Positions 4,327 through 60,143 of a stretch of 64,000 bases of DNA are shown piece by piece (within the stretch, counting starts at the first letter, position 1; the number at the start of each line of letters is the position of its first letter). A model generated the notes under the pieces. It had not been told where the DNA came from and did not search any database. It saw only the letters and a program-made list of their open reading frames with translations. The DNA is taken from contig NZ_JAKRCW010000005.1 in NCBI RefSeq assembly GCF_022346425.1, positions 62,001 to 126,000 on the forward strand. Reading direction: 5' to 3'. This DNA is from Pseudoglutamicibacter albus (GTDB lineage Bacteria > Actinomycetota > Actinomycetes > Actinomycetales > Micrococcaceae). The position numbers were made by a program, and so were the translations under genes.

Positions 4327-5322
4327 TCAACCAGCGGCTACTTTGACCACGTCAGGGCGGGCTTTGGCATCAGCGCGCAGAATCTCACGAGCACGGTCAA
4401 CGTCCATGTGCATCTGCTCGATGAGCGCCTCAGGGCCGCGGTAGGTGATGGTTGGCCGTAAGTGGTCCACAAACTCGAGCACCACATCCTGCTCATACAA
4501 GTTAAAGTCCTCGACCTGCTCGCCCTCGGGACGGTCCATCACAAACGCCTCAGCGACACGCACCACGCCATCGAACGTCGGGTTCGTACCAATCGAGATC
4601 GCAGACGGCCACCACACCCCGGCCTGATCGATCAACCAGCCCGCATACACGCCGTCAGCCGGCATCAGACCGGTCGCGTCATCGGCCAGATTCGCGGTAG
4701 GGAAACCGAGCTCGCGGCCGCGCGCGAAACCGTGCGCCACCGTCCCGAACATGCGGTGATTACGGCCCAAAACCTCCGCCGCGGATTTCACATCCCCCAC
4801 CTGCAGCGCTTCACGCACCCACGTCGAGGACCAGCGCCGTTGCAGCCCCACATCAGCCAGCGTGACAACCTCGAAACCGAACTTCTCACCCAGCGTGCGC
4901 AAACACTCGATGTCACCAGCGTTGTCCAGGCCGAACCGCACGTCCTCACCCACCACCACGGCACGGGCATGCAACACATCCACCACGTAGTTCTTCACGA
5001 ACTCTTCAGGGGTCTGTTGCGCGAACTCCCACGTGTAGTTCAGGCGCAGAACCGCGTCAACCCCGGCCTCAGCACAGTGGATGTCCTTGATCTCATCAGC
5101 CATGATCGGGACCGGCGCAAACGCCGGCCGGTGCACCGTGGCAGGATGCGGGCTAAACGTCATCACAACACCGGCACACGGCGGCTCGCTCGCGGCAGCG
5201 AGCTCAACAACCCGTTCCAGCAAGGCCATGTGCCCGCGGTGAACGCCATCGAAATTACCGATCGTCACCACCGAACACGTCAGCGACTCCGGAACCTCAG
5301 AAGGATCCGTCCAAATATGCAC
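4327..5322 (-). CDS. ribF: Bifunctional riboflavin kinase / FAD synthetase
   Basis: Converts riboflavin to FMN and FMN to FAD; 331 residues, full length. The N-terminal nucleotidyltransferase domain has GNFDGVHRGH at 22–31. The C-terminal kinase domain has GFPTANL (near 205) and the later region around NPTFDG. It starts with ATG (MHIWTDPSEV). The methyltransferase gene begins 13 bases downstream, so the two may be co-transcribed. Confidence 0.96.
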   Translation of the reverse strand: MHIWTDPSEVPESLTCSVVTIGNFDGVHRGHMALLERVVELAAASEPPCAGVVMTFSPHPATVHRPAFAPVPIMADEIKDIHCAEAGVDAVLRLNYTWEFAQQTPEEFVKNYVVDVLHARAVVVGEDVRFGLDNAGDIECLRTLGEKFGFEVVTLADVGLQRRWSSTWVREALQVGDVKSAAEVLGRNHRMFGTVAHGFARGRELGFPTANLADDATGLMPADGVYAGWLIDQAGVWWPSAISIGTNPTFDGVVRVAEAFVMDRPEGEQVEDFNLYEQDVVLEFVDHLRPTITYRGPEALIEQMHMDVDRAREILRADAKARPDVVKVAAG

Positions 5323-55963: not shown

Positions 55964-57295
55964 CTAGGCGCGGGCGGCGTGGAAGGCGTCGAAGCCCTTC
56001 TGCAGGTCGGCGATGATGTCATCCACGTGTTCAAGGCCCACTGAGAGGCGGACTGTGCCTGGGCCTACGCCGGCGGCTCGCTTCTCTTCCGGAGACAGCT
56101 GGGAGTGGGTTGTGGATGATGGATGCGCCACGAGCGAGCGGACGTCACCGAGGTTGGCCAAGAGCGAGTGCAGCTCGAGCGCGTCCACGAAGGCGCGGGC
56201 CGCTTCCTCGTTGTCTTCAGCTCCCCTGATCTCGAAGGAGACGATCGCGCCCACCCCTTCGGGTGCGTAGTGGCGGCCACGTTCATACCACGGGCAGGAT
56301 TCCAAGCCGGCATAGATGGTCGCGGAGACGTCATCGCGCGCTTCGAGCCATTGAGCGACCTTCTGCGCGTTCTCGATGTGCCTCTCAACACGCAGAGAGA
56401 GCGTTTCGAGGCCTTGGGCGATCAGGAAGGAGTTCATTGGGGAGATCGCAGCGCCGGTGTCACGCAACAACTGCACGCGGATCTTCAGGATGTAAGAGAG
56501 GTTCGCACCCAGTGGCGAGCCAACACCCATATCGCGGCCGTAAACGATGCCGTGATAGGACTCATCCGGCTGGTTGAAACCCGGGAAACGCTCCGGGTGT
56601 TGGGTGTAGTCGAAGTTTCCTGAGTCAATAATGACCCCGCCCATCGCGGTTCCGTGGCCGCACAGGTACTTGGTTGCGGAGTGAACCACGACGTCGGCGC
56701 CCCATTCGATCGGGCGCAGCGAGTACGGGGTTGCCAGCGTGTTGTCAATGATGAGCGGTACGCCTGCCTCATCGTGTGCAATCGCGGCGATGTTTTCGAT
56801 GTCGAACACGTCTTGGCGCGGGTTACCGATGGTCTCGCCGAAGAAGGCCTTGGTGTTCGGCTTGATTGCCCCGCGCCATGCATCCAGGTCGTCTGGATCT
56901 TCCACGAACGTGACCTCGACACCGAGCTTAGGCAGAGTGTGCTTGAAGAGGTTCTGCGTCCCGCCATAGAGGGATGGCGATGCGACGATGTGATCGCCGG
57001 CTTCCGCAACATTGAGGATCGCATAGCTCGTAGCCGCCATTCCGGAGGCGACGAACAGCGCACCGACGCCGCCTTCGAGGCTTGCCATGCGGTTCTCGAT
57101 GACCTCGGTGGTCGGGTTACCTAAGCGCGTATAGATAGGCCCCAGCTCGCTCAGCGCAAAGCGGTTGGCAGCAGCCTCGGTGTCAGGGAAAACATACGCG
57201 TTGGTCAGGTGGATCGGTAACGCTTGCGAACCCGTGGTCGGGTCTGGAGTCTGGCCGGCGTGGATCTGACGAGTTTCGAACTTTTGTTGCGACAT
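55964..57295 (-). CDS. metY: O-acetylhomoserine sulfhydrylase
   Basis: PLP enzyme that joins sulfide to O-acetylhomoserine to give homocysteine; 443 residues. HSATKYLCGHGTAMGG contains the PLP Lys; YTRLGNPTTEVIENRMASLEGG and SGMAATSYAIL are typical of the Cys/Met metabolism family, OAH branch. ATG at 57295 gives MSQQKFETR; the frame to 57337 lies in the riboswitch leader. Its ribosome site (AGGGG) can pair with CCCCT upstream. Confidence 0.95.
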   Translation of the reverse strand: MSQQKFETRQIHAGQTPDPTTGSQALPIHLTNAYVFPDTEAAANRFALSELGPIYTRLGNPTTEVIENRMASLEGGVGALFVASGMAATSYAILNVAEAGDHIVASPSLYGGTQNLFKHTLPKLGVEVTFVEDPDDLDAWRGAIKPNTKAFFGETIGNPRQDVFDIENIAAIAHDEAGVPLIIDNTLATPYSLRPIEWGADVVVHSATKYLCGHGTAMGGVIIDSGNFDYTQHPERFPGFNQPDESYHGIVYGRDMGVGSPLGANLSYILKIRVQLLRDTGAAISPMNSFLIAQGLETLSLRVERHIENAQKVAQWLEARDDVSATIYAGLESCPWYERGRHYAPEGVGAIVSFEIRGAEDNEEAARAFVDALELHSLLANLGDVRSLVAHPSSTTHSQLSPEEKRAAGVGPGTVRLSVGLEHVDDIIADLQKGFDAFHAARA

Positions 57296-57305
57296 ATACA
57301 GTGCA

Positions 57306-57326
57306 CCCCTTGATTCATAGGAGGGG
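57306..57326 (-). promoter_or_regulatory. Hairpin that can hide the metY ribosome site
   Basis: CCCCT (57306–57310 on the plus strand, the AGGGG ribosome site on the mRNA) can pair with AGGGG at 57322–57326. Together with the riboswitch this suggests control of translation start. The stem is only 5 bp. Confidence 0.4.
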
Positions 57327-57382
57327 CTTGCCCGCATACACCGGTTGAATTGACGTAACGTCCGCCCGGATACGGGCGGGCA

Positions 57383-58318: not shown

Positions 58319-59146
58319 CTAGCTGCCGTACCCGAACCATGCCGTGAGCAGCGGGTAGCCCACAAACGCGACCGCATCGAGTAAGAAGTGCGCCCAGATG
58401 AGCGGCATGATGCGGCGTTTGTGTAGGTAGTAGAGCCCAAAGATCACGCCCATCGCTACGTTGCCGATGAACGGCCCGATGCCTTGGTAGAGGTGGTAGG
58501 AGCCGCGCACTACGGCGCAGAAGATGATGATCGCGGTAGGCGTCCATTTCAGTGTTGCGAGCCGCTCATGCAGATAGGCGAGCACCACGATCTCTTCAAG
58601 TAACCCGTTCTTGAGTGCGGCCAACAGCAACACGGGCACGCTCCACCACGCATCCGGCAGGCCTGAGGTCGTGATTGCGGTCGTGACACCGAGCGCCCTG
58701 CCCACCGCGTATACCGCGAGGGTTCCTACGCCGATGAGCACGAAGAATGCGAAACCCACTGCGGCGTCGCTACCGCATCGTTGACCGTCAATGCCCCACC
58801 TGCGCCAAGGCTTATTGCCCGGCCAGCGTGAAAGAAGGTAGATCACGAGCGCTACCGGGGCAAGCGCAAAGAAGATGCCGGCAAGCTGATACAGCAGATC
58901 AATCCACTCACGCGTGCTAGTTGAGGTGTTGAGGGCCGCGGTCCCGGAGGAGATGGGGCCGCGCGTGATGGTGTCGAGCAAGTCGATGAGCGCATACACC
59001 CCGGATTTGCCCAAAGAGAGCGCCAGGACGATGCCGATCTCCCACCCCAGGGCCTTTCGCGAGGGCGCCCCCAGCTCGCCCAGGCCGGGCGTCTTCGCTG
59101 AGCCGTCACCGTCTGGGGTGTGTGCGTGTGGGGATTGGGCACTCAT
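58319..59146 (-). CDS. CPBP (CAAX-like) intramembrane metalloprotease
   Basis: 275 residues with about seven membrane segments. Conserved motifs are LLEEIVVLAYLHERL (EE pair), RGSYHLYQG (His) and WAHFLLDAV (His/Asp). Substrate unknown. ATG at 59146 is chosen; the frame to 59188 would run past the divergent start region. Confidence 0.87.
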   Translation of the reverse strand: MSAQSPHAHTPDGDGSAKTPGLGELGAPSRKALGWEIGIVLALSLGKSGVYALIDLLDTITRGPISSGTAALNTSTSTREWIDLLYQLAGIFFALAPVALVIYLLSRWPGNKPWRRWGIDGQRCGSDAAVGFAFFVLIGVGTLAVYAVGRALGVTTAITTSGLPDAWWSVPVLLLAALKNGLLEEIVVLAYLHERLATLKWTPTAIIIFCAVVRGSYHLYQGIGPFIGNVAMGVIFGLYYLHKRRIMPLIWAHFLLDAVAFVGYPLLTAWFGYGS

Positions 59147-59179
59147 GCATCCGATTATGCTCGGTAGGCTGGATGCATG
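59144..59179. promoter_or_regulatory. Inverted repeat containing both start codons of a divergent pair
   Basis: CATGCATCC (59144–59152) and GGATGCATG (59171–59179) are perfect inverted copies 18 bases apart. Each holds the ATG of one of the two divergent genes, so both start as GGATGC-ATG. The middle has overlapping -10-like boxes, TATGCT (59156–59161, plus) and CATAAT (59154–59159, minus). Confidence 0.6.
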
Positions 59180-60085
59180 GCCAGGCAACCCACGAGCGAA
59201 GAAGTTGAACGCGCCAACGCTTTATACCCTGCCGCGGATTGGGTTTCTGGCCGGGTTGAGGAATCTGGGAAGTCGAACCTGGTTCTCATCCCGGCAGACC
59301 CGGTTCCTGAGGTTGTGTTCCGGATGGCCCGGACTCGTGAGGAGGCGCTCGCCCAAGCCCGCCGTGCCGCGTTAGCGGATGCGCTTGCCCCGCATGTTCC
59401 GTGGCTCGTCCCTGAATCCCGCTCCCCGATCGATTCCGCCGGCGGGATCATCCAACGTTTCATCCCAGGTGCCGCCCACCCGCTACACCAAGGCGACCCT
59501 GCAGTATTGGGGCGGATTATTACCGACCTGCAAGCGGTTCCGTTGAGCGCCTACGAAGGCCTGGTTGGCGCGCCCTGGGAGGCAGAACCTCAATGGACCC
59601 AGGCCCGCGCCGATGCCGCGATCGATGCGCTTGAGCCCGATGTGCGGGCAAGTGCCGCTACCGTGTTAGCTACTCTGGGTCAGATGGAGCAAGCCATGGG
59701 ATCCGCGGTGGGCCAAGGCGCCGCTCTTCGCGGTTCACTCCGGCGTGGTTTAGTGCATGGGGACTTAGCGGGCCGGAATATGCACTGGCGTGATGGCGAG
59801 CTGATCGGGATCCTCGACTGGGACAAAGCATCCTTGTGGGACCCAGCGATCAATCTGGCGCATCTATCCCTGTGGCACGGCCAAGACGTGATCGACCCGT
59901 CAGCCCCGGATGAGTTCTTCGCGGCTCGAGCCCACGTGTGGAACGGGTCATTGGCGTTGACTCGCGTGGCTGACGCCGCACTACGCGGTGGCGTGAAAAC
60001 CTGGGGCCGGCTTTTGAGGAAGACCCAGCCGCGCATCATCCGGGCCGCTCAAGCCGCACACGTATGCCGCGAGCTGCTGCAGTAA
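59177..60085 (+). CDS. APH-family phosphotransferase
   Basis: 302 residues. The kinase loops LVHGDLAGRNMHW (catalytic Asp) and GILDWDKASLWDPA (metal-binding Asp) define the aminoglycoside phosphotransferase / kinase-like family. The substrate may be a small metabolite rather than an antibiotic; nothing here points to resistance. Shares a start element with the CPBP gene. Confidence 0.87.
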   Translation: MARQPTSEEVERANALYPAADWVSGRVEESGKSNLVLIPADPVPEVVFRMARTREEALAQARRAALADALAPHVPWLVPESRSPIDSAGGIIQRFIPGAAHPLHQGDPAVLGRIITDLQAVPLSAYEGLVGAPWEAEPQWTQARADAAIDALEPDVRASAATVLATLGQMEQAMGSAVGQGAALRGSLRRGLVHGDLAGRNMHWRDGELIGILDWDKASLWDPAINLAHLSLWHGQDVIDPSAPDEFFAARAHVWNGSLALTRVADAALRGGVKTWGRLLRKTQPRIIRAAQAAHVCRELLQ

Positions 60086-60095
60086 TCCCCTCGGC

Positions 60096-60143
60096 CTCAT
60101 ACTGTTGAGCTCGCTACGGGGCTCATACTGTGGAGCTCGCTAG
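60096..60143. repeat. 26-bp tandem duplication at the stop of the 60140 gene
   Basis: CTCATACTGTTGAGCTCGCT (from 60096) and CTCATACTGTGGAGCTCGCT (from 60122) differ at one base. The second copy includes the gene's TAG (CTA 60140–60142); the first repeats CTA downstream. Confidence 0.95.

Follow-up and report, generated by a model that had tools for sequence, protein, structure and literature searches.

We found that the two genes diverging at this site, one for an intramembrane protease and one for a kinase, are very probably served by a compact pair of leaderless promoters that face away from each other and have a -10 box each, the inverted repeat that spans their start codons being no operator. 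Across the sequences compared, conservation falls not on the repeat but on the -10-like hexamers that precede the two start codons by 6-7 bases. The pair is ordinary in kind, its predicted promoters being of a known leaderless type, and it illustrates on how little DNA two leaderless genes may get by. RNA polymerase would bind either of two sigma-70-type -10 boxes, CATAAT on the minus strand or TAGGCT on the plus strand, and transcription would start at the A of each gene's own ATG. The resulting mRNAs would carry neither a 5' UTR nor a Shine-Dalgarno site (judged by eye to be absent for the predicted leaderless starts), and their translation would be leaderless. The features are listed in Table 1, with positions in the window, i.e., the whole stretch of 64,000 nucleotides that was analysed.

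Table 1. Genes, predicted promoter elements and repeat arms at the divergent site
Feature	Position	Strand	Details
Protease gene, CPBP/Rce1-like intramembrane	58319..59146	-	275 aa, ATG start at 59146; Pfam PF02517, E 1.5e-14
Left arm CATGCATCC	59144-59152		Protease start codon plus six bases; identical in 4/4 genus genomes
Intergenic region with both predicted promoters	59147..59176		30 bp
Protease -10-like box CATAAT	59159-59154	-	7 nt before ATG; 5 bp from TAGGCT
Kinase -10-like box TAGGCT	59165..59170	+	6 nt before ATG
Right arm GGATGCATG	59171-59179		Six bases plus kinase start codon; varies between species of the genus
Kinase gene, APH-like phosphotransferase	59177..60085	+	302 aa, ATG start at 59177; Pfam PF01636, E 6.4e-13

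The first-pass annotation had placed the only -10-like boxes, overlapping each other, in the 18 bases between the repeat arms. Boxes at leaderless spacing do lie there, but they do not overlap; the hexamer that overlaps CATAAT is a second one on the plus strand, TATGCT (59156-59161), at a spacing of 15 nt from the kinase ATG. A box is found 6-8 nt before each of the two starts. The plus box fits TANNNT at spacing 6. The minus box is off the strict TANNNT consensus, fits only the weaker NANNNT, and is the protease box throughout this genus. A consensus promoter scan picked up just one weak site, which lies on the minus box; the plus box gave no hit (shuffles average 0.4).

Boxes of this kind are known from the literature. 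A TANNNT motif about 10-12 bp upstream of starts is given as a mark of leaderless bacterial genes (PMC3160421), and a study of M. tuberculosis describes leaderless genes with the same motif and without a -35 consensus (PMC3898074). As described in these two papers, the TA-led leaderless genes of Actinobacteria have in common with our site a box of the TANNNT type that precedes the start codon by about 6-8 nt, no requirement for a -35 consensus, no predicted 5' UTR, and ATG or GTG starts. Our site differs from them in having two predicted starts back to back within 31 bp and CATAAT as its minus box. Juxtaposed divergent promoters are reported to be common in M. tuberculosis, where, according to a figure legend, the divergent neighbours prpD and Rv1129c both give leaderless mRNAs (PMC3898074). 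The window pair resembles prpD / Rv1129c in that its genes are divergent neighbours and leaderless (for the window, by prediction only), but that pair includes a regulator, whereas the window pair joins a membrane protease and a kinase.

By their sequence signature, leaderless starts are ordinary in this species: TANNNT before candidate starts peaks at 6, 7 and 8 nt (18, 17 and 12 of 311 genes), against 0-8 genes at every remaining spacing between 0 and 29. These counts come from 400 kb sampled from a genome of the same species, called as 80% coding, with unverified longest-ORF starts as gene starts. This sample holds 41 divergent pairs with a gap <400 bp, two of which, the window pair included, are boxed on both sides (TANNNT, or CATAAT as here). 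The second such pair (L094, about 4430-4529) has its starts about 99 bp apart.

Divergent adjacent protease-kinase pairs, picked by eye from match tables, are present in 42 of 149 Micrococcaceae genomes, from 9 genera; no adjacent divergent pair was dropped, genomes in which the two matches lie apart are left out of the count, and genomes within one genus are not independent in the counts. Starts were taken by script from ATG/GTG candidates, partly by their boxes, with the same lists used for a control at other spacings. At a spacing of 6-7 nt, TANNNT precedes 33/42 protease and 29/42 kinase genes, and at twelve other spacing pairs it precedes 0-3 protease and 0-4 kinase genes (strict TANNNT is missing at 6-7 nt in 9/42 protease and 13/42 kinase genes). 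The looser NANNNT is found at 6-7 nt in 42/42 protease and 36/42 kinase genes, with up to 16 and 8 at other spacings. Both genes are boxed (NANNNT at 6-7 nt) in 36 of the 42 pairs, and the other six all belong to genus g23. Protease loci without an adjoining kinase match have NANNNT at spacing 6-7 in 12/15 cases and TANNNT in 8/15, these 15 loci being a subset of such genomes counted with no other-spacing comparison; the protease promoter seems, from these sequences, to be independent of the kinase partner.

Leaderlessness is not universal among the pairs, because the six g23 kinases (G025, G052, G075, G111, G126 and G141) lack NANNNT at a spacing of 6-7 nt. The g23 proteases keep their box, as TATGAT or TAGGAT, and the kinase shows an apparent switch between a leaderless and a leadered start. 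Purine-rich, Shine-Dalgarno-like stretches were seen by eye before the starts of several of the pairs unboxed on the kinase side.

Closer relatives allow the site to be compared base by base. Four genomes of the genus, two from the window's species and two from other species, agree completely in the left arm, in the 18 bases of the spacer and in the predicted start distance of 31. The 30-bp intergenic region is 29/30 identical to G003 and 28/30 identical to G002 (the two other species), and in the same comparisons the fourfold-degenerate sites of both flanking genes are 46-56% identical, which indicates that the region is under strong constraint. Two ideas of the first-pass annotation are well supported by these patterns: that the genes have almost no 5' UTR, each start codon being preceded at 6-7 nt by a conserved -10-like box, and that they share promoter DNA, with these boxes standing in a near-invariant intergenic region. 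Beyond the genus, the predicted boxes are kept across relatives while spacing and repeat vary. The predicted start-to-start distance is 13 in g20, 25 in G138, 31 in g1, 37-38 in g11, 64-65 in g22 and 147 in two g14 genomes. This natural spacing series (13 to 147 bp, same two genes) could be used to gauge how small the distance between divergent promoters may become before their polymerases interfere.

With predicted starts 31 bp apart, the -35/upstream contact zone of each gene would overlie the start region of the other. We infer from this distance that one polymerase would cover both starts, so that initiations would compete. The mutually exclusive transcription proposed in the first-pass annotation is plausible in a narrow form, with one polymerase at a time and exclusion of single initiation events only; given fast promoter clearance, the expression of the two genes need not be exclusive. 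One may go further and suppose that the pair is maintained as a leaderless promoter working both ways, the start codons serving also as the contact zone of the opposite promoter, and that the products are made alternately or in a fixed ratio, with g20 as the extreme case. We regard this extension as unlikely.

In g20, 12 bp with the core CATAGGATCGATGGTATG separate the start codons in 5/5 genomes with the pair (L102-L106), and each predicted -10 box has its first base at the base pair that also holds the opposite start codon's initial letter. This core is predicted to be a near-palindromic two-way leaderless promoter. Three sites with one mismatch to it were found, in g12 and g25 genomes (L099-L101).

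Symmetric promoters were originally described in a paper of 2021. It is distinctly improbable that our site is a single promoter of this sort, in which CATAAT on the minus strand and TATGCT on the plus strand would be overlapping -10 elements and plus-strand transcription would begin about 9 nt ahead of the kinase ATG. The two hexamers do overlap, in a stretch that is identical throughout the genus, and bacteria are described as commonly having two-way promoters whose -10 elements overlap (PMC10268837). Within the genus this arrangement is inseparable from separate boxes, because the stretch is invariant there. The other genera argue against it: TANNNT lies 14-15 nt before the kinase start in 4/42 pairs, all four of the window's genus, whereas outside the genus it is found at 6-7 nt in 25/38 pairs and at 14-15 nt in 0/38. 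The bidirectional, near-symmetric promoters of PMC10268837 have in common with the window pair that opposite-strand starts share promoter DNA. That class, however, is delimited by a distance of 7-25 bp between start sites, and the window pair differs in its predicted 31 bp and its separate boxes; g20 (13 bp) and G138 (25 bp) would fit that class if their predicted starts hold.

As first described, the inverted repeat is perfect, with both ATGs in its arms (minus strand, 59146-59144; plus strand, 59177-59179), 9/9 complementary positions and 18 nt between the arms, and the 2.22 Mb genome holds a single such pair of arms when gaps of 10-30 nt between them are allowed. Only six bases per arm need to match, because the other three are the start codons; caution is warranted with any mirror repeat that spans two start codons, since these supply part of it themselves. 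When the gene starts called in the 400 kb sample were paired, 27 of 48,205 pairs (5.6e-4) had a 6/6 upstream match. With the sample's 41 close divergent pairs scaled to about 227 per genome, simple arithmetic gives a chance expectation of about 0.13 such start-codon repeats per genome. The single 9-mer GGATGCATG has 18 genome sites, arms included, vs 6 for the reversed pattern and about 23 expected from the mean of 0.67 per 64 kb in window shuffles, scaled to the genome; the window has 3 sites, a number reached by 2/100 shuffles. Set against chance, the repeat and the enrichment of its arm are uncommon, not compelling.

The third copy of the 9-mer in the window, at 56877-56885, lies within a minus-strand ORF (55964-57337) and is not preceded by a -10-like hexamer. 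Inspection by eye of the 16 other genome sites, unmapped to genes, gave no sign of a regulon; among them, L110 has TANNNT 6-7 before the ATG, and L111 and L112 have NANNNT at that spacing. An RNA hairpin formed by the repeat was set aside, as neither transcript holds both arms if both begin at the ATGs.

If the repeat were an operator, a dimeric regulator bound to both arms would control both genes. The perfection and uniqueness of the arms, the invariance of the left arm and spacer within the genus and the over-representation of the arm in the window and, against the reversed pattern, in the genome all favour this, which we nevertheless hold to be highly improbable. Immediately upstream of the kinase ATG stand six bases that read GGATGC in both genomes of the window's own species, and GGAGGC and GGTGGC in the two other genus genomes; these one or two changes in the right arm are the sole ones in the 30 bp, and they break the symmetry. 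The six-base arm match is 6/6 in the window's species, 5/6 and 4/6 in the congeners, and extends to 1-4 of 6 bases in those pairs of other genera that were scored. Complete matches are confined to 2/36 scored pairs, both of the window's own species (the six g23 pairs are unscored). Neither the two flanking genes nor the next ones out include a recognised regulator. We rejected the operator because the repeat breaks within the genus. The proposal of one protein bound to the repeat finds no support, as genus-level changes disrupt the right arm and the scored pairs of other genera do without the repeat; its conservation in relatives, on which the proposal had been made to depend, does not extend beyond the species. 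The sequences are best explained if the mirror repeat is a coincidence confined to this species, made up of two ATGs and a chance match of the six discriminator bases.

That distant promoters inside the opposite gene serve both genes, the boxes being mere decoration, agrees with the consensus scan that gave one weak site and left the plus box unmatched, but it has next to no likelihood given box positions conserved in 9 genera and a 30-bp region near-invariant against the 46-56% at silent sites.

The predicted start of the protease stands at a position common to the genus, and its N-terminus reads MSS in relatives vs MSA in the window. For the kinase, the matches to NCBIfam models all scored far under the cut-offs and do not give a substrate. 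The sole named record returned for it is from Pseudoglutamicibacter cumminsii (79% identical), whose sequence at the divergent site is that of G003 of the same genus; by this identity the window would belong to Pseudoglutamicibacter, family Micrococcaceae. The next genes out are a glyoxalase-like gene, a 63-aa ORF without family and a redoxin gene. The G+C content of the kinase gene is 0.67 at third and 0.73 at first codon positions, in contrast to its neighbour, with 0.78 at third and 0.60 at first positions; from these values the kinase gene could be faster-evolving or later-arrived. Directly past it are two near-identical copies of CTCATACTGTKGAGCTCGCTA (60096-60116 and 60122-60142), and this repeat is shorter in a same-species genome (L004) and so varies between strains.
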